This document shows, piece by piece, positions 30,182 to 64,000 of a DNA stretch of 64,000 nucleotides. The stretch is from Acidovorax sp. GBBC 1281 (GTDB lineage Bacteria > Pseudomonadota > Gammaproteobacteria > Burkholderiales > Burkholderiaceae_C), in NCBI RefSeq assembly GCF_028473645.1, contig NZ_CP097269.1, forward strand, positions 814,001-878,000, given 5' to 3'. How positions within the stretch are numbered: position 1 is the first letter of the stretch; every line of letters starts with the position of its first letter. The translations under genes and the position numbers were made by a program. Below the pieces are notes generated by a model, which worked only from the letters and a program-made list of their open reading frames with translations, ran no database searches and was not told where the DNA came from.

Positions 30182-30327
30182 GGCTTTGTTGCACAAATCG
30201 CGATGCTGATGCCCGTAGACTGACTGCGTGACAGAGACGAAGAACAGGCAGCGGAGCAAGTACCGCACGACGAACTGGAAGGCGTACAACGCGGCGCTGA
30301 AAGCGCGAGGCTCGTTGACGATGTGGC

Positions 30328-31490
30328 TAGTGTCCTGTCCCGTTAATTCGCAGGCACGATAGCTGCATGGTTTCGGGCCATCCTTGAGGTGCCGCCATGC
30401 CCAATGCAACGACCCGAACAGAAATTGCGCTTAGTGAAGTGGAGCGCGCGGAACTGACGTCCATGGCGCGATCACGTTCGCTGCCAGCGGCGTTGTCGCT
30501 CAGGGCGCGCATCGTGCTGACTTGCGAAGGCACAGATAAAGCCAGCACCGCGGTTGCGCAGGCTCTGGGGATCAGTCGTAGCACTGTCACCAAGTGGCGC
30601 GGGCGCTATGCGCGCCATCGCATTGCAGGGCTTTACGACGAGTTGCGCCCGGGTCGCCCCCGCACGGTAGATGACGAGCGTGTTGCTGAGTTGATTACCA
30701 AGACGTTGCACACCAAGCCTGCTGATGGGGGTACCCACTGGAGCACCCGCACGCTGGCCGCCGATACGGGCATCAGCAAGAGCACGGTGGCGCGCTATCT
30801 GCAGACCTTCAACCTCAAGCCGCACCGGGCCGACAGCTTCAAGCTGTCGACCGATCCGCTGTTCATCGAGAAGCTGCGCGACGTTGTGGGGCTGTACCTG
30901 AACCCACCTGACAACGCGCTGGTGCTGTGCGTGGACGAGAAGAGCCAATGCCAAGCTTTGGAGCGTACGCAGCCGATGCTGCCAATGGGGTTTGGCTATG
31001 TCGAAGGTGTCACGCACGACTACGTGCGCCACGGCACCACCACCTTGTTCGCGGCCCTGAACGTGATGAATGGCCAAGTGATCGCGCAGTGCCGGCCCCG
31101 GCATCGTCATCAAGAGTTCCTTGCCTTCCTGCGCGCCATCGACAAGGCAGTGCCCGACGAACTGGATGTGCACTGCATAGCTGATAACTACGCCAGCCAC
31201 AAGCATCCAAAGGTGCGCGCTTGGTTGGCCGAGCGGCCTCGCTGGCACATGCACTTCGTTCCGACCTATTCAAGCTGGCTCAATCAGGTCGAGCGCTTCT
31301 TCTCGATCATCACCACGCGGGCAATCCGCCGTGGCTCGTTCACCAGCGTGAAGGATCTGATCAACAAGATCGACACATTCATCGCGAATTACAACCAGTC
31401 CTGCCAGCCGTTTACTTGGACAGCTACAGCAGACTCCATCCTCGAAAAACTCGCCAGACTATGCGGGCGAATTAACGGGACAGGACACTA
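30328..31490 (+). mobile_element. IS630-family element nested in copy 1
   Basis: 1159-bp body (30330-31488) with perfect terminal inverted repeats beginning GTGTCCTGTCCCGTTAATTC, flanked by the TA duplicated on insertion (30328-30329 and 31489-31490), as expected for IS630/Tc1-mariner elements. Its target was the CTAG in the IS903-like transposase gene. One intact transposase gene fills it. Confidence 0.92.
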
Positions 31491-31491
31491 G
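30397..31491 (+). CDS. IS630-family transposase
   Basis: 364-residue DDE transposase: N-terminal helix-turn-helix pair (VAQALGISRSTVTKWRGRY; LAADTGISKSTVARYLQTF) and catalytic residues in CVDEKSQCQ (Asp), HCIADNYASHKHP (Asp) and SSWLNQVERFFS (Glu). It appears intact. The frame runs through the right inverted repeat and its TAG stop is built from the duplicated TA plus a G of the target. A GAGG site precedes the ATG. Confidence 0.93.
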   Translation: MPNATTRTEIALSEVERAELTSMARSRSLPAALSLRARIVLTCEGTDKASTAVAQALGISRSTVTKWRGRYARHRIAGLYDELRPGRPRTVDDERVAELITKTLHTKPADGGTHWSTRTLAADTGISKSTVARYLQTFNLKPHRADSFKLSTDPLFIEKLRDVVGLYLNPPDNALVLCVDEKSQCQALERTQPMLPMGFGYVEGVTHDYVRHGTTTLFAALNVMNGQVIAQCRPRHRHQEFLAFLRAIDKAVPDELDVHCIADNYASHKHPKVRAWLAERPRWHMHFVPTYSSWLNQVERFFSIITTRAIRRGSFTSVKDLINKIDTFIANYNQSCQPFTWTATADSILEKLARLCGRINGTGH

Positions 31492-32393
31492 ATGAGGGCA
31501 TGCAGTGGTTTGGCACGCCGACCGGCAGGCGTGGACGCAGCCGAACCTTCTCGGACGCAGCAATCCAGTTCTGCCTGAGCATCAAGTGCCTGTTCGGCCA
31601 GCCCTTGCGACAGGCGCTGGGCATGGTGCAGAGCCTGCTGCGGCTGGCAAAGCTGGACTGGCCGGTACCTGACTTCAGCACTGTTTGCCGGCGCCAAAAG
31701 ACCTTGCAGGTCGAACTGAGCTACCAGCGAACCAACTCGCCGCTGCAGTTGCTGGTGGACAGCACCGGCATCAAGTTCCTGGGCGAAGGAGAGTGAAAAC
31801 GCAAGAAGCATGGTGCTGAATACCGGCGCGAATGGCGCAAGGTCCATCTGGGCATCGACGCGCAGACGCTGGAAATACGCGCCATCGAGGTGACCAGCAA
31901 CGCCATTGGGGATGCGCCGATGTTGCCCGGGTTGCTGGCTCAGATTCCCACTGACGAATCCATCGAAAGCGTCAGTGCCGATGGCGCCTACGACACGCGC
32001 GCCTGCCTGGACGCCATTGCCGAGCGGCACGCGATGGCGGTGATCCCGCCCCGCAAGAACGCCAGCCATTGGAAGAAGTCGAGTCCGGGCTCGGCGCATC
32101 GTAATGAGGCCATTCGGGCGTGCCAGCGCCTGGGTCGCGGCATTTGGAAGAAGTGGAGCGGCTACCACCGGCGCAGCCTTGTGGAGACGAAGATGCACTG
32201 CTTCAAGCGACTGGGCGAACGGGTGATCGCGCGCACGTTCGACCGCCAGGTTGTGGAGCTGCATGTCCGCGTGGCCTTGCTCAATCGGTTCAGTCAGATC
32301 GGCCGTCCTCACACCGTGTCGGTGACTGCTGTGGCATAGGTCCGTCTGGGGTTGGGGTCATGCCGTCTGCAATTCGATTTGTGCAACAGCGCC

Positions 32394-55431: not shown

Positions 55432-55577
55432 GGCTTTGTTGCACAAATCGCGATGCTGATGCCCGTAGACTGACTGCGTGACAGAGACGAAGAACAGGCA
55501 GCGGAGCAAGTACCGCACGACGAACTGGAAGGCGTACAACGCGGCGCTGAAAGCGCGAGGCTCGTTGACGATGTGGC

Positions 55578-56740
55578 TAGTGTCCTGTCCCGTTAATTCG
55601 CAGGCACGATAGCTGCATGGTTTCGGGCCATCCTTGAGGTGCCGCCATGCCCAATGCAACGACCCGAACAGAAATTGCGCTTAGTGAAGTGGAGCGCGCG
55701 GAACTGACGTCCATGGCGCGATCACGTTCGCTGCCAGCGGCGTTGTCGCTCAGGGCGCGCATCGTGCTGACTTGCGAAGGCACAGATAAAGCCAGCACCG
55801 CGGTTGCGCAGGCTCTGGGGATCAGTCGTAGCACTGTCACCAAGTGGCGCGGGCGCTATGCGCGCCATCGCATTGCAGGGCTTTACGACGAGTTGCGCCC
55901 GGGTCGCCCCCGCACGGTAGATGACGAGCGTGTTGCTGAGTTGATTACCAAGACGTTGCACACCAAGCCTGCTGATGGGGGTACCCACTGGAGCACCCGC
56001 ACGCTGGCCGCCGATACGGGCATCAGCAAGAGCACGGTGGCGCGCTATCTGCAGACCTTCAACCTCAAGCCGCACCGGGCCGACAGCTTCAAGCTGTCGA
56101 CCGATCCGCTGTTCATCGAGAAGCTGCGCGACGTTGTGGGGCTGTACCTGAACCCACCTGACAACGCGCTGGTGCTGTGCGTGGACGAGAAGAGCCAATG
56201 CCAAGCTTTGGAGCGTACGCAGCCGATGCTGCCAATGGGGTTTGGCTATGTCGAAGGTGTCACGCACGACTACGTGCGCCACGGCACCACCACCTTGTTC
56301 GCGGCCCTGAACGTGATGAATGGCCAAGTGATCGCGCAGTGCCGGCCCCGGCATCGTCATCAAGAGTTCCTTGCCTTCCTGCGCGCCATCGACAAGGCAG
56401 TGCCCGACGAACTGGATGTGCACTGCATAGCTGATAACTACGCCAGCCACAAGCATCCAAAGGTGCGCGCTTGGTTGGCCGAGCGGCCTCGCTGGCACAT
56501 GCACTTCGTTCCGACCTATTCAAGCTGGCTCAATCAGGTCGAGCGCTTCTTCTCGATCATCACCACGCGGGCAATCCGCCGTGGCTCGTTCACCAGCGTG
56601 AAGGATCTGATCAACAAGATCGACACATTCATCGCGAATTACAACCAGTCCTGCCAGCCGTTTACTTGGACAGCTACAGCAGACTCCATCCTCGAAAAAC
56701 TCGCCAGACTATGCGGGCGAATTAACGGGACAGGACACTA
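55578..56740 (+). mobile_element. IS630-family element nested in copy 2
   Basis: Same ends, size and TA duplication (55578-55579 and 56739-56740) as the element at 30328, and inserted at the same base of the IS903-like transposase gene. So the nest was copied as a unit or recombined, rather than formed twice. Confidence 0.92.
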
Positions 56741-56741
56741 G
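55647..56741 (+). CDS. IS630-family transposase, second copy
   Basis: 364 residues identical in translation to the protein at 30397, including both helix-turn-helix parts and the D, D, E residues. Its TAG stop is again completed by the target TA plus G. Intact. Confidence 0.93.
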   Translation: MPNATTRTEIALSEVERAELTSMARSRSLPAALSLRARIVLTCEGTDKASTAVAQALGISRSTVTKWRGRYARHRIAGLYDELRPGRPRTVDDERVAELITKTLHTKPADGGTHWSTRTLAADTGISKSTVARYLQTFNLKPHRADSFKLSTDPLFIEKLRDVVGLYLNPPDNALVLCVDEKSQCQALERTQPMLPMGFGYVEGVTHDYVRHGTTTLFAALNVMNGQVIAQCRPRHRHQEFLAFLRAIDKAVPDELDVHCIADNYASHKHPKVRAWLAERPRWHMHFVPTYSSWLNQVERFFSIITTRAIRRGSFTSVKDLINKIDTFIANYNQSCQPFTWTATADSILEKLARLCGRINGTGH

Positions 56742-57643
56742 ATGAGGGCATGCAGTGGTTTGGCACGCCGACCGGCAGGCGTGGACGCAGCCGAACCTTC
56801 TCGGACGCAGCAATCCAGTTCTGCCTGAGCATCAAGTGCCTGTTCGGCCAGCCCTTGCGACAGGCGCTGGGCATGGTGCAGAGCCTGCTGCGGCTGGCAA
56901 AGCTGGACTGGCCGGTACCTGACTTCAGCACTGTTTGCCGGCGCCAAAAGACCTTGCAGGTCGAACTGAGCTACCAGCGAACCAACTCGCCGCTGCAGTT
57001 GCTGGTGGACAGCACCGGCATCAAGTTCCTGGGCGAAGGAGAGTGGAAACGCAAGAAGCATGGTGCTGAATACCGGCGCGAATGGCGCAAGGTCCATCTG
57101 GGCATCGACGCGCAGACGCTGGAAATACGCGCCATCGAGGTGACCAGCAACGCCATTGGGGATGCGCCGATGTTGCCCGGGTTGCTGGCTCAGATTCCCA
57201 CTGACGAATCCATCGAAAGCGTCAGTGCCGATGGCGCCTACGACACGCGCGCCTGCCTGGACGCCATTGCCGAGCGGCACGCGATGGCGGTGATCCCGCC
57301 CCGCAAGAACGCCAGCCATTGGAAGAAGTCGAGTCCGGGCTCGGCGCATCGTAATGAGGCCATTCGGGCGTGCCAGCGCCTGGGTCGCGGCATTTGGAAG
57401 AAGTGGAGCGGCTACCACCGGCGCAGCCTTGTGGAGACGAAGATGCACTGCTTCAAGCGACTGGGCGAACGGGTGATCGCGCGCACGTTCGACCGCCAGG
57501 TTGTGGAGCTGCATGTCCGCGTGGCCTTGCTCAATCGGTTCAGTCAGATCGGCCGTCCTCACACCGTGTCGGTGACTGCTGTGGCATAGGTCCGTCTGGG
57601 GTTGGGGTCATGCCGTCTGCAATTCGATTTGTGCAACAGCGCC

Positions 57644-58182: not shown

Positions 58183-59640
58183 ATGGCCGTTCCTATCCAG
58201 GCGGTTGACGGCTGTATCCATGGGATTGAATTGCGCGATCAGGTAGCAACGATCGCTAGAGAGGGGAATAACTTGGCAGATCTGCAGATCGAGGTAACAG
58301 TCAAAGAGGGTGATTCCAGCACTGCGCGGGGTTCACTCCTGGAGTCTCTCGTTAAGCGAGTACTGATTGCTCTCCAGTACGAGCATGTGCGAACGACAGT
58401 CAAAGTGACCGGCTGCGAACTCGATGTAGTTGCACAGGACAAGCAGACCGGAACTCGAGTGTTAGTCGAATGCAAGGCTTACAGAGACAAGACGCTAAGC
58501 GCTGACGTCCTGACAAAGCTGATGGGAAATCTTGCCTTTAGCGATGAGTACAAAGCGGGTTGGCTGGTCACGACGGGTCCTCTAGGAAAGGAGGCTTTGG
58601 GTCTGGTTGAGCAGCATCGCCAGCGGCCTCCCGAGCAGCGCGAGCGACTTCGAATCTGGGAACCACAGCCGCTTATTGACCTATTGGTTTCAACTGGTCA
58701 GATAGTTCCGGTGCAGAAACTTCAATTGCCGTCGTCGCACGTCGTCTTGGGCAGCCATACGCTCTGCATTACAGACATCGGCGAGTATTGGGCGGTGACC
58801 GCAATCGGCCCCAAGTCGGGCGTGGCCGACACGGTGCTAGCCTTTGATGCAACAGATGGCTCACCTGTAAAGAACGCTGCCCTGCTCCAGCAGTTGGCGT
58901 CCAGAGACTCGAACTTGAAGACCTTAGAGTGGGTTGCGGGAGGCGAGGAAGGCGTCGCTGTTGGCACCGTGGCTGATGCATCACTCCGTCAAGAACTGGA
59001 TAGTATTGCGTCTGTACCGGTTGCTGATGATTGGTCTGACTACCGACCAGCAAGAGCGGAAGACTTCGTAGGGCGAGACGAGCTGTTGAAGGACATCGTC
59101 CGTTACTTTGACGATGTCCGAACTGGTGAATCGGGGGCGCGCCTTCTGGCCATCAAGGCACCATCGGGGTGGGGCAAAAGCTCGTTCTTGGTGAAGCTCC
59201 GATCGGTTTGTCAGCAGGGAAAAAACAAGGACAGGCTTTTTCTCTATGCAGTCGATTGCCGCACCGCAATCTCCCCTCGGTATCCCGAACTTGCATTGAA
59301 GCGATGCATTGACGCGGCCGTCGCGAGCGGCTTTGTCACCGGAGCTGGAAAGCCGTGTCGCGTAACCTCAGCTGGTCAGCCATTCGCAGATCTTTCGATG
59401 CGCGCGGTTCTTGATGAATTGAAAGAAAAGAACAAGGTCATCGTCCTGTTCTTTGACCAGTTTGAAGAGATAACCACCAAGCAAGAGCTAGCCGAGCTGT
59501 TTAATCAGATTCGGATGCTGTGCGCTGCGGTGGAGTCCGCAGACGAGTCAATCGTTTTGGGCTTCTCCTGGAAGACCGACGGCTCGATCCCTACGGATCA
59601 CCCGGCCTATCACGTTTGGCACTCGTTTTCCGATCGACGT
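58183..59640 (+). pseudogene. Mrr-type nuclease / STAND NTPase defence protein, C-terminus cut off by an IS
   Basis: 486 residues remain. The N-terminal Mrr-like restriction nuclease fold (about 45-150) has the catalytic pattern Glu in RGSLLESLVKRV, Asp in CELDVVAQD and the ExK in LVECKAY. A linker leads to a STAND-type NTPase: FVGRDELLKDIVRYF (about 305), Walker A APSGWGKSSF (about 330) and Walker B VIVLFFDQFEEI (about 425). The protein then breaks at the IS903-like copy 3; the sensor repeats usual for this class are missing. Nuclease-STAND fusions of the Avs type act against phages. A TTG at 58273 behind GAGAGGGG may be the true start. Confidence 0.75.
58273..58275 (+). promoter_or_regulatory. 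alternative start codon with strong ribosome site
   Basis: TTG in frame with the Mrr/STAND gene, preceded by GAGAGGGG at 58258-58265. It would start the protein with LADLQIEVTVKEG, directly before the nuclease domain. The ATG at 58183 has no clear ribosome site. Confidence 0.5.
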
Positions 59641-59775
59641 GGCTTTGTTGCACAAATCGCGATGCTGATGCCCGTAGACTGACTGCGTGACAGAGACGAA
59701 GAACAGGCAGCGGAGCAAGTACCGCACGACGAACTGGAAGGCGTACAACGCGGCGCTGAAAGCGCGAGGCTCGTT

Positions 59776-59783
59776 GACGATGT
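59776..59783 (+). repeat. 8-bp target duplication of the IS66 element, left
   Basis: GACGATGT, repeated at 63162-63169. Eight bases is the normal IS66-family duplication length, and restoring one copy rejoins the IS903-like transposase frame. Confidence 0.9.
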
Positions 59784-59889
59784 GTAAGCGTCTTCTCAGT
59801 ACCCTCTGTTTTTGCTGAGGGCTGATGTGCAGGCTCGGTGGTCCATGTACGCTGCGATGGTGTGCATGAAGAACCGCTAATGCACATCA

Positions 59890-60291
59890 ATGAACGATCA
59901 AGACACCCCGAGCAAGCGCCGTCGGCGCGAGCACAGCCCGATGTTCAAGCGCGAGCTGGTCGCACGAAGCCTGGTGCCCGGCGCGTCAGTGGCCGCCGTC
60001 GCGCTGCAGGCCGGCATCAACTCGAACCTGCTGTTCGCATGGCGCCGGATGCACCTGAGCACGCAAGAGCAGCCCCAGACGCCAGCGCCGCCGCAGCCCT
60101 CGCCGATGTTGCTGCCCGTCACCATCGAAGCTGCTCCGGTTGCGCCATGCCCTTCACCCACGGCGGCGGCGCCTCGTCAGCCTGGCGGGACCATCGAGAT
60201 CGATGTCGGCGGGGCGAGGGTGCGATTGCGCGGTGCAGTCGACGAAGCCAGCGTGCGCCATGTCCTGCAGACGCTCAAGGCGCTGGCGTGA
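59890..60291 (+). CDS. tnpA: IS66 accessory protein TnpA
   Basis: 133 residues; N-terminal helix-turn-helix part (FKRELVARSLVPGASVAAVA) as in the first IS66 orf, followed by a Pro-rich linker. Needed, with TnpB, for transposition in this family. Overlaps tnpB (GTGA). Confidence 0.85.
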   Translation: MNDQDTPSKRRRREHSPMFKRELVARSLVPGASVAAVALQAGINSNLLFAWRRMHLSTQEQPQTPAPPQPSPMLLPVTIEAAPVAPCPSPTAAAPRQPGGTIEIDVGGARVRLRGAVDEASVRHVLQTLKALA

Positions 60292-60635
60292 TCGGCCTTC
60301 CCACGAGCACCCGCGTCTGGATCGTTGCCGGCCACACCGACATGAGGAAGGGCTTCAACGGCCTGTCTGCGATGGTGCAGACGGCGCTGGCGGCCAACCC
60401 CTTCTGCGGTCACGTCTTCGTCTTCCGCGGCCGGCGCGGCGACATGCTCAAGGTGCTGTGGTTCGATGGCCAGGGATTGCTTCTGCTGGCCAAGCGCCTG
60501 GAGCGCGGCCGATTCGTCTGGCCGCAGGCGCAAGGCGGCAAGGTCTCGCTCACGCCGGCACAGCTCTCGATGCTGCTCGAAGGCATCGACTGGCGCATGC
60601 CGATGCGCACAGATCAGCCTGCGCTCGCAGCTTGA
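60288..60635 (+). CDS. tnpB: IS66 accessory protein TnpB
   Basis: 115 residues, GTG start at 60288. Signature RVWIVAGHTDMRKGFNGLSA and FVFRGRRGDMLKVLWFDGQG, typical of IS66 orf2 proteins. Coupled to tnpA by GTGA overlap. Confidence 0.9.
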   Translation: MIGLPTSTRVWIVAGHTDMRKGFNGLSAMVQTALAANPFCGHVFVFRGRRGDMLKVLWFDGQGLLLLAKRLERGRFVWPQAQGGKVSLTPAQLSMLLEGIDWRMPMRTDQPALAA

Positions 60636-60712
60636 ACTGGGCTCAAGAATTCGTCTTCTGAACGCGCTGGTCGCGGTCGATTCCGGGTAGGTCCGATGGC
60701 ATAGTAGATGGC

Positions 60713-62278
60713 GTGCCGAACACCGCCAACGCACCCCACACCGTCGACTCGCTGCTGCGTGTCGTGCAGGCCCGTGACGCGGAAGTCGCCCTGCTCAAAC
60801 TGCTCGTCGACAAGCTCAAGGTGCAGTTGCTGCGCCAGGTCCGCGCCCGCTTCGGCGCCTCCAGCGAGCAGTTGGACGATCCGCAGATCGCATTGATCGA
60901 AGGTCTGCCGCTGCATGAACTCGCACCGGTCGGCAAGACACCGAAGGCGCAAGCGGCCAACAGCGAAGGCTTCGACCGCAGCCTGCCCACACACCTGCCG
61001 CGGGAGAACCATGTGTACCGGCCCGAGACATCGGATGCGCGGCGCGATGCCGCCGGCCAGGCCTGCGGCTGCAGCGCATGTGGTGGTCGGCTGCGGCAGA
61101 TCGGCCAGGACGTCTCGGAACAACTGGAGTACGTGCCCTCGCGCTTCAAGGTGATCCGCCACGTGCGCCCCAAGCTCGCCTGCATGGCGTGCGAATCGAT
61201 CTTCCAGGCGCCAGCGCCCAGCCGGCCCATCGCACGCGGCGTGGCCGGCCCCGGGCTGCTGGCCCACGTGCTGGTCGCCAAGTATTGCGACCACCAACCG
61301 CTGTACCGCCAGAGCCGGATCTACGCACGCGAGGGCGTCCTGATCGAGCGCTCCACGATGGCTGGCTGGGTCGGCCAGAGCGAGAAGCTCTTGCACCCAC
61401 TGGTCGCAGCGCTCGGGCGCTACGTGCTGGCGGGCTCCAAGCTCCACGCCGACGACACGCCAGTGGCGGTGCTCTCGCCCGGGCGGGGCAAGACCAAGAC
61501 CGGGCGGCTCTGGGTCTACGTGCGTGACGATCGGTCATCTGCGAGTGCAGACGCGCCCGCGGCGTGGTTGCGTTACTCGCCCGACCGCAAGGGTGAACAT
61601 CCTCAGGCGCACCTGAAGAACTTCAAGGGCGTGTTGCAGGCCGATGCGTATGCCGGCTTCGCCAAGCTCTATGCAAACGGCAACGTCATCGAGGCTTCGT
61701 GCTGGGCGCATGCGCGCAGACCATTCTGGGATCTGCACGAGAGCCAGGGGCGGGCGCAGGGCTCGGTTGCAGAACAGGCCCTTCGGCGCATCGGTGCGCT
61801 GTATGCGATCGAATCCGACATCCGCGGCCGCCCACCGGATGAGCGCTGCCGGGAGCGGCAGGCGCGAGCCGGGCCGTTGCTCGAGGAACTGTTCGCCTGG
61901 TTGCGAGGGATGCTCGGGCAGGTGTGTGCCAAGTCGGAACTCGCACGCGCCATCGGCTACACGCTCACACGGCTCCGGTCGTTGACGCGCTACCGTGACG
62001 ACGGTCGCATCGAGATCGACAACAACGCCGCCGAGCGCGCGCTGCGCGGCGTGAGCCTGGGCCGCAAGAACTTCATGTTCATGGGCTCGGACGCTGGGGG
62101 CGAGCGCGCCGCGGCCATCTACAGCCTGGTGGAGACGGCCAAGCTGAACGGGCTCGACCCCGAGGCTTACCTGCGCGATGTGCTCGGGCGCATTGCGGAC
62201 CATCCGATCAATCGCATCGACGAGTTGCTGCCGTGGAACATCGGCCGACACGCCGAAGACCAACGACAAGCAGCTTGA
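60713..62278 (+). CDS. tnpC: IS66-family transposase TnpC
   Basis: 521 residues, GTG start. N-terminal leucine-zipper-like helix ([18 protein letters not shown]), zinc-binding part ([10 protein letters not shown] ... CMACES), DDE core with [13 protein letters not shown] (Asp), [10 protein letters not shown] (Asp) and [14 protein letters not shown] (Glu), and the IS66 C-terminal domain ([20 protein letters not shown]). Complete. Confidence 0.93.
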
Positions 62279-62280
62279 GC

Positions 62281-62862
62281 ATGGCGAGCAAGGTCCAACG
62301 GATCAAGGCACCAGCGGCGATCCTGCAACTGCACATTGAATTGCGCGGCACCAAGCCCAAGGTCTGGCGCCGCGTCCTGGTGCCAGAGACGATCACCCTG
62401 GCCAAGCTGCATCTTGTGGTCCAGGCTGCCTTCGGCTGGGGCCACTCGCATCTGCACGAGTTCATCGCTGGCGACGGCGAGCGCTATGGCACGCCAGACC
62501 CGATGCACGACGAGCCTGGCTCGATCACCAGCGAAAGCACGCGACTGACCACTGCCCTGAACCGGTCGACGCTGAGCTACGTCTACGACTTCGGGGACTA
62601 CTGGGACCACCGCATCAAGGTCGAGAAGAAGATCGCACCGATGCCGCAGTTCGTGCTCCCGTTCTGTGCCGGCGGTGCCTGTGCAACGCCGCCGGAGGAT
62701 TGCGGAGGCGCACCGGGCTATGCGGAGTTCGTGCGGGCCATGGCGAACCCTGACGATCCCGAGCACGACAACCTGGTCGAATGGATCGGTGCCGATACCT
62801 GGGACCCGTTGGCCTTCGACAGCATCGAGATCAACGACCGGCTCGCCGCGATCAAGGTCTGA
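62281..62862 (+). CDS. pRiA4b ORF-3-like passenger protein
   Basis: 193 residues from ATG 62281. Contains LQLHIELRGTKPKVWRRVLV and YVYDFGDYWDHRIKVEK, the pattern of the plasmid pRiA4b ORF-3 family, and a Cys-rich late part (CAGGACATPPEDCGGAPGY). The function is unknown. It follows tnpC by 2 bases inside the IS66 ends, so it travels with the element. Confidence 0.88.
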   Translation: MASKVQRIKAPAAILQLHIELRGTKPKVWRRVLVPETITLAKLHLVVQAAFGWGHSHLHEFIAGDGERYGTPDPMHDEPGSITSESTRLTTALNRSTLSYVYDFGDYWDHRIKVEKKIAPMPQFVLPFCAGGACATPPEDCGGAPGYAEFVRAMANPDDPEHDNLVEWIGADTWDPLAFDSIEINDRLAAIKV

Positions 62863-62868
62863 GCGACG

Positions 62869-63114
62869 ATGTCTCGGACGAACTACATCAAGGCCCTGAT
62901 CGAGGACGGCGGCGACATCACGATCGGTGCGCTGCCACCGCACGAGTGCGTCGCCACGGCCGCCGATGGCAGCAACTGCCTGGCCATGCTCGTGCGTCGC
63001 GACGGTGAGAGCCTCAACGTCCTGCTCAAACGCTTGAACAAGGCCATCGGCCTGGCTTGGTCAAACGACACGTTCGTTGACGAGGTCAACGACGGCGAGA
63101 GCGACCTGCTGTAG
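62869..63114 (+). CDS. small passenger protein of the IS66 element
   Basis: 81 residues (MSRTNYIKALIEDGGDITIG). No recognised domain. 6 bases after the previous gene and inside the right IS66 end. Probably cotranscribed with it. Confidence 0.7.
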   Translation: MSRTNYIKALIEDGGDITIGALPPHECVATAADGSNCLAMLVRRDGESLNVLLKRLNKAIGLAWSNDTFVDEVNDGESDLL

Positions 63115-63161
63115 TTCTTCCGTCGATCCCGCGTCAAGAGGGGGGCTGAGACGGCGCTTAC

Positions 63162-63169
63162 GACGATGT
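63162..63169 (+). repeat. 8-bp target duplication of the IS66 element, right
   Basis: Second copy of GACGATGT (see 59776). Confidence 0.9.
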
Positions 63170-64000
63170 GGCTAGATGAGGGCATGCAGTGGTTTGGCAC
63201 GCCGACCGGCAGGCGTGGACGCAGCCGAACCTTCTCGGACGCAGCAATCCAGTTCTGCCTGAGCATCAAGTGCCTGTTCGGCCAGCCCTTGCGACAGGCG
63301 CTGGGCATGGTGCAGAGCCTGCTGCGGCTGGCAAAGCTGGACTGGCCGGTACCTGACTTCAGCACTGTTTGCCGGCGCCAAAAGACCTTGCAGGTCGAAC
63401 TGAGCTACCAGCGAACCAACTCGCCGCTGCAGTTGCTGGTGGACAGCACCGGCATCAAGTTCCTGGGCGAAGGAGAGTGAAAACGCAAGAAGCATGGTGC
63501 TGAATACCGGCGCGAATGGCGCAAGGTCCATCTGGGCATCGACGCGCAGACGCTGGAAATACGCGCCATCGAGGTGACCAGCAACGCCATTGGGGATGCG
63601 CCGATGTTGCCCGGGTTGCTGGCTCAGATTCCCACTGACGAATCCATCGAAAGCGTCAGTGCCGATGGCGCCTACGACACGCGCGCCTGCCTGGACGCCA
63701 TTGCCGAGCGGCACGCGATGGCGGTGATCCCGCCCCGCAAGAACGCCAGCCATTGGAAGAAGTCGAGTCCGGGCTCGGCGCATCGTAATGAGGCCATTCG
63801 GGCGTGCCAGCGCCTGGGTCGCGGCATTTGGAAGAAGTGGAGCGGCTACCACCGGCGCAGCCTTGTGGAGACGAAGATGCACTGCTTCAAGCGACTGGGC
63901 GAACGGGTGATCGCGCGCACGTTCGACCGCCAGGTTGTGGAGCTGCATGTCCGCGTGGCCTTGCTCAATCGGTTCAGTCAGATCGGCCGTCCTCACACCG

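Follow-up and report, generated by a model that had tools for sequence, protein, structure and literature searches.

The window examined here (the whole stretch of 64,000 nucleotides that was analysed, G000:C1:814001-878000) contains the N-terminal half of a gene that has been split, and very probably inactivated, in this strain by an insertion sequence (IS) that we take to be of the IS5 type. The gene very probably came by horizontal transfer, and its intact product, of about 912 residues, would be a single-gene STAND defence protein. What is left here is most likely two fragments without function. The architecture, an Mrr nuclease joined to a STAND ATPase, is already known, and the unusual part is the C-terminal tail; we read the gene as a disabled member of an Mrr-STAND defence family whose tail possibly reads DNA.

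The part of the gene within the window lies in an open reading frame on the plus strand that runs from an ATG at 58183 to a stop at 59682 (499 aa). The ATG at 58183 adds 30 residues that are absent from P0002, the closest relative, which is 91% identical across 91% of the query and has the N-terminus MADLQIEV. Because P0002 begins at the position of TTG 58273, and because a GAGAGGGG run stands ahead of that codon, TTG 58273 is the likelier start. The 456 codons from this TTG (58273..59640, plus strand) encode the Mrr nuclease, a middle domain and most of the STAND nucleotide-binding domain (NBD). Native coding stops at 59640, and the IS supplies the final 13 residues of the frame, exactly as the initial annotation had claimed. 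That annotation had also described a nuclease fold with a Glu, Asp, ExK pattern and a P-loop NTPase with Walker A and B motifs, and the profile search agreed, since Pfam detected both domains above their cutoffs. Mrr_cat was placed at 58339..58617 on the plus strand (residues 53-145; E 8.8e-10; 39.2 bits, gathering cutoff 21), with all four catalytic-type residues of the E/D/E-x-K active site present (E24, D51, E66 and K68 in TTG numbering). The nSTAND1 region was placed at 59038..59559 on the same strand (residues 286-459; E 8.3e-9; 36 bits against a cutoff of 27.1), and includes Walker A, APSGWGKSS, at 59158-59184 and Walker B, LFFDQFEE, at 59446-59469. The database cluster of the 499-aa protein (P0001) has three member sequences on two contigs, and a second contig thus encodes a protein at least 90% alike.

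The insertion that splits the gene is 4437 bp long and extends on the plus strand from 59641 through 64000, the end of the window, to extended position 64077 (extended coordinates are L002 positions plus 56000). It was named from its ends, size and transposase, and is bounded by a perfect 9-bp repeat, the target-site duplication GATCGACGT, at 59632..59640 (plus strand) and, beyond the window, at extended 64078-64086. Within it lies a second element (59784..63161, plus strand), presumably of the IS66 type as judged from its ORF content, which is flanked by the 8-bp repeat GACGATGT at 59776-59783 and 63162-63169; the outer IS is old enough to have received it. Behind its transposase genes the nested element carries two extra ORFs, at 62233-62862 (209 aa) and 62869-63114 (81 aa).

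The sensor had been described as missing, with the suggestion that the rest of the gene might be found past 64 kb. A search of the DNA right of 64077 showed that the suggestion was correct and that the sensor is not lost: coding resumes right of the IS with 456 codons and a stop (extended 64087-65457; L002 8087-9457), which encode the last NBD strand, the helical domain (HD), the winged-helix domain (WHD) and the tail. Loss of the sensor by deletion is thereby excluded. A 464-aa ORF at L002 8063-9457 aligns without a stop to residues 369-826 of the relative P0004 (77% identity), whose residues 1-376 are matched by the half inside the window (79%). With 58273-59634 and L002 8087-9454 entered as two rows in the alignment of relatives, the two columns left free between them corresponded to the arginine codons 59635-59640. 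The GxP motif of the helical domain (QGYPW) lies at extended 64207-64221, and the C-terminal half gave no Pfam match at E 0.5. A PIN_12 gene is located at extended 65547-66704 (L002 9547-10704; Pfam E 2.7e-18). A weak check, in which the first 60-70 residues of the ORFs around nine genome loci and 15 viral loci were read and no PIN protein was recognised, spoke against this gene as an obligatory partner of the Mrr-STAND gene.

The gene-splitting IS copy differs from copy 2 at two of the 905 bases compared, and one of the two differences accounts for a TGA at 63478-63480 in its transposase frame, absent from copy 2. A 902-base segment of the IS5-type element has at least 40 near-identical places in genome G000 (for example window 56742-57643), and the sequence points to a large recent expansion of the element in this genome. 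Given the near-identical copies and the low number of differences, the disruption of the gene was probably part of this expansion. Copies 1 and 2 (window 30182-32393 and 55432-57643, 2212 bp each) have no matching 9-bp flanks in the window sequence, unlike copy 3, which splits the gene. At copy 2 the sequence differs from that of G007 by about 460 bp, and this difference, together with the unmatched flanks, suggests that copy 2 underwent deletion or recombination.

Relatives in genomes were found with six exact peptide patterns, and the resulting 18 loci are a lower bound, as are the homologue counts, for which the best 8000 candidates by common words were scored. Ten of the 18 loci encode a single frame of 877-918 aa and four, all cyanobacterial, one of 777-829 aa, such that at least 777 aa are present in one frame at 14 loci; among the remainder, L017 and L019 are shorter, L020 is broken and L018 reaches the contig end. 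These lengths exclude a C-terminus that is absent from the homologues, a possibility against which the initial annotation had proposed to be judged. C-half-only proteins (P0046 and P0053, from Caballeronia sp. LZ001 and Burkholderia sp. AU31652) and a pair of fragments reported on contigs of equal length (P0027 with P0044) hint that the gene has been broken repeatedly elsewhere. The genes of L004 (Brachymonas) and L005 (a 'Bacillota' MAG) have equal length and ends, and equal identity and E-value to the query, and the MAG contig may therefore be mis-binned. Beside other relatives we noticed restriction-type genes, namely a type I R-like ORF, recognised by reading (L010 6729-9938), and a DNA methyltransferase (phrog_67) followed by a 904-aa ORF (L027 1402-5651).

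L005 (a near copy of L004), L013, L015, L017 and L020, as well as the viral duplicates L028, L033, L035 and L037-L039, were excluded from the alignments. Across 30 aligned rows, the nuclease residues E29, D56 and K73 are invariant and E71 is nearly so, and the NTPase residues G302, G304, K305 and D398 are invariant (L003 numbering). Mean pairwise identity among the 21 non-fragment rows was 42.8% in the Mrr domain, 25.9% in the middle domain, 43.7% in the NBD, 42.8% in the helical domain and 47.1% in the winged helix, and 29.3, 26.2 and 22.3% along the tail.

These results can be used to evaluate what remains of the gene in this strain. The IS cuts the NTPase, as the initial annotation stated, but not right after the NTPase core, since the cut falls within the predicted NBD, ahead of its last strand. 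It had further been proposed that the truncated N-terminal half is a useful stand-alone nuclease-NTPase. Although the nuclease and Walker motifs are intact, this half lacks the last strand, the GxP helical domain, the winged-helix domain and the tail; a cut inside the predicted NBD makes a working N-terminal half unlikely, and the 14 loci described above argue that the gene normally has its long form. We consider this proposal scarcely credible. Another explanation is that the protein still works when split, the N-terminal half being expressed from its own promoter and the C-terminal half from a start inside the IS end. Neither half has stops, and a TTG at L002 8063, in the right end of the IS, is in frame with the native codons; however, the same position of the cut speaks against it, and the open frames are equally explained by a recent event, given the at least 40 near-identical IS copies, so that a functional split protein is very improbable.

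In the predicted structure, the intact relative L003, from Polaromonas jejuensis, has an NBD-HD-WHD STAND fold with GxP, and the NTPase core is structurally near 8bob_C (MalT) and ORC1/Cdc6; a Foldseek search of the viral library returned AAA-type matches for the most part. The tail of L003 was modelled largely as tandem winged helices, with beta-wing units at about 621-763 and an all-helical last part. Across ~150 positions, its first ~160 residues can be aligned with the DNA-recognition modules of FokI, Nt.BspD6I and BpuJI as tandem winged helices. The PADLOC and NCBIfam scans gave only weak, partial P-loop or nuclease matches and no family covering the tail, and PHROGs gave no match for L003 and one weak match for L030. 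No family name for an Mrr-nSTAND1 protein was found in titles and abstract starts of the open-licence literature, and no mention of accession WP_000113630 was found in open-licence literature.

Relatives were detected on 15 viral contigs (nine groups at 90% identity), and when the viral library was scanned again, with the L034 protein as query, eight loci came up, seven on contigs already found. In L034 the gene is flanked by Psu (phrog_6366, 2e-100) on one side and an integrase (phrog_1, 5.5e-68) on the other. In E. coli 4/4 the same gene has a 'phage polarity suppression protein' gene as one neighbour and, as the other, an integrase gene that is itself interrupted by IS1, beside ssrA; the E. 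coli relative WP_000113630.1 occupies the psu-int position of a P4 satellite. In all, one of these relatives was matched in 54 of 5426 E. coli genomes, 53 times across 80% or more of the gene. Two loci are P2-type: L030 is flanked by a primase (phrog_1139) and a portal gene (phrog_68), and for L040 only the portal gene is seen, on one side. Matches were also found in 15 of 72,556 plasmid records (six over at least 80% of the query); the 50,697 phage records gave none. The gene of this window is itself located outside any P4- or P2-type element. In its excerpted text, a previous study describes the P4 psu-int and P2 gpA-portal positions as antiviral hotspots (Rousset et al. 2022, PMC9122126). 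The same excerpts describe hotspot STAND proteins that resemble the present ones in having Mrr_cat and STAND domains and in the psu-int position of WP_000113630.1; theirs are 'coupled to C-terminal repeats', whereas the Mrr-nSTAND1 tail is modelled largely as winged helices. The relatives carried by phages and phage satellites probably act as defence weapons.

The GC content of the two halves (55.2% and 58.0%) and of the PIN_12 gene (57.3%) is low compared with the window (67.6%), which indicates that the cargo is foreign. Apart from the strain itself, none of 199 relatives (198 others; E<=0.001) and none of 369 class genomes (368 others; E<=1e-30, at most two candidates scored per listed genome) gave a match to the window gene. 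The site of the cargo was compared within the genus using two genes that, from their sequences, we take to be ychF and yihY. ychF is present in 17 of 17 genus genomes, this strain's included, and yihY is nearby in G007, G006 and G003, as it is in this strain. In place of the Mrr-STAND cargo, G007 has an HNH_2 protein, G006 a metallophosphatase-nSTAND5 protein (PADLOC PDC-S60, 8e-34) and G003 a C5 methylase with GmrSD_N and a sub-cutoff HEPN match. The G006 protein (L069 4480-7290, minus strand), a metallophosphatase-nSTAND_NTPase5 fusion of 936 aa, is itself another candidate STAND-type defence protein. In the other 13 genomes, DNA matching position ~75,500 is found within 1.0-5.6 kb after ychF, as opposed to 20.5 kb here. 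One of those 13, G016, was profile-scanned at the ychF spot and has the candidate defence pair HEC-01A/B directly after ychF (PADLOC 1.2e-183 and 3.1e-89; L072 23-1815), and G013 (L075), judged by ORF starts, has a same-looking pair. The scans of G007, G006, G003 and G016 thus place defence-type genes at this spot in four of 16 relatives, with G013 probably a fifth. The native locus is a variable spot where other members carry different defence-type genes, and the ychF side is a candidate defence hotspot of the genus.

The initial annotation likened the protein to Avs antiphage proteins. The likeness holds for the order of nuclease, STAND module and C-terminal sensor, which is that of Avs4/AVAST, and Avs4 has an Mrr-like nuclease; membership of Avs is not supported. 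The protein differs in its length of about 912 aa, in having no Avs match listed and in a tail modelled largely as winged helices. The listed PDB sequence matches contained no Avs chain, and the PADLOC and NCBIfam listings no Avs profile, although these libraries may not hold Avs4 chains or models, and the lack of an Avs or TPR structure among the 50 tail matches listed is not evidence of absence. The protein differs from MalT and from NLR-type receptors (NLRP3, NOD2 and Apaf-1) in that its effector is a nuclease and its tail, by the model, is not LRR, WD40 or TPR. An Mrr-like effector is also shared with NTP-dependent conflict systems, as the excerpted text of PMC7159879 names an Mrr-like REase clade among the effectors of NTPase-based conflict systems, and the exact Mrr-nSTAND1 architecture was not found in those excerpts.

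One could envisage that the protein is an Avs-like receptor, a reading that departs from our preferred one only in the trigger, with a tail that recognises a conserved phage protein such as portal or terminase and winged helices that serve as a protein-binding scaffold. Winged helices are frequent protein binders, the tripartite order is as in Avs, and the divergence of the tail fits a pattern-recognition sensor. According to the excerpts available of three studies, characterised bacterial STAND receptors sense phage proteins by a C-terminal sensor that is often a repeat domain (PMC12931631, PMC12724215, PMC10907252), the proteins bound being conserved ones and, for Avs4, the portal (PMC12724215). 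On the other hand, no Avs chain or profile was among the matches listed, and the tail is modelled with beta-wings, unlike TPR arrays. We regard such a receptor as quite possible, if short of an even prospect. That the protein has no part in defence and is instead a STAND ATPase for chromosomal maintenance or regulation would be in keeping with the structural proximity of its core to MalT and ORC1/Cdc6; however, the gene found no match in any of the other relatives and class genomes searched, its relatives reside in prophage and satellite hotspots, and its GC content is low, all of which render this role most unlikely.

We therefore return to a STAND defence protein, for which we infer antiphage activity, oligomerisation and DNA cleavage at the level of the family. 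The intact protein would be an alarm of the NLR or Avs type, whose N-terminal Mrr nuclease would be kept idle. Infection would be sensed by the divergent C-terminal tail, whereupon the STAND module would swap its nucleotide and oligomerise, and the clustered nucleases would cleave DNA and so halt the phage, alone or together with the cell. Since the model of the tail consists largely of tandem winged helices, we tentatively prefer DNA read by the tail as the trigger, with confidence slightly less than even; most of the remaining probability falls on a phage protein. The more complete proposal, that a STAND receptor with a restriction-enzyme-like tandem winged-helix reader senses foreign DNA itself and fires Mrr by an NLR-type ATP switch, is put forward as a rather doubtful possibility.

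The locus records a defence-type gene broken amid an IS expansion, at a place where members of the genus keep other defence-type genes. STAND receptors connect the innate immunity of bacteria and eukaryotes, and a family that has kept nuclease and switch together with a winged-helix tail offers a direct test of whether a STAND receptor reads DNA. If the proposal is true, a receptor that senses foreign DNA would link restriction enzymes to NLR-like receptors.
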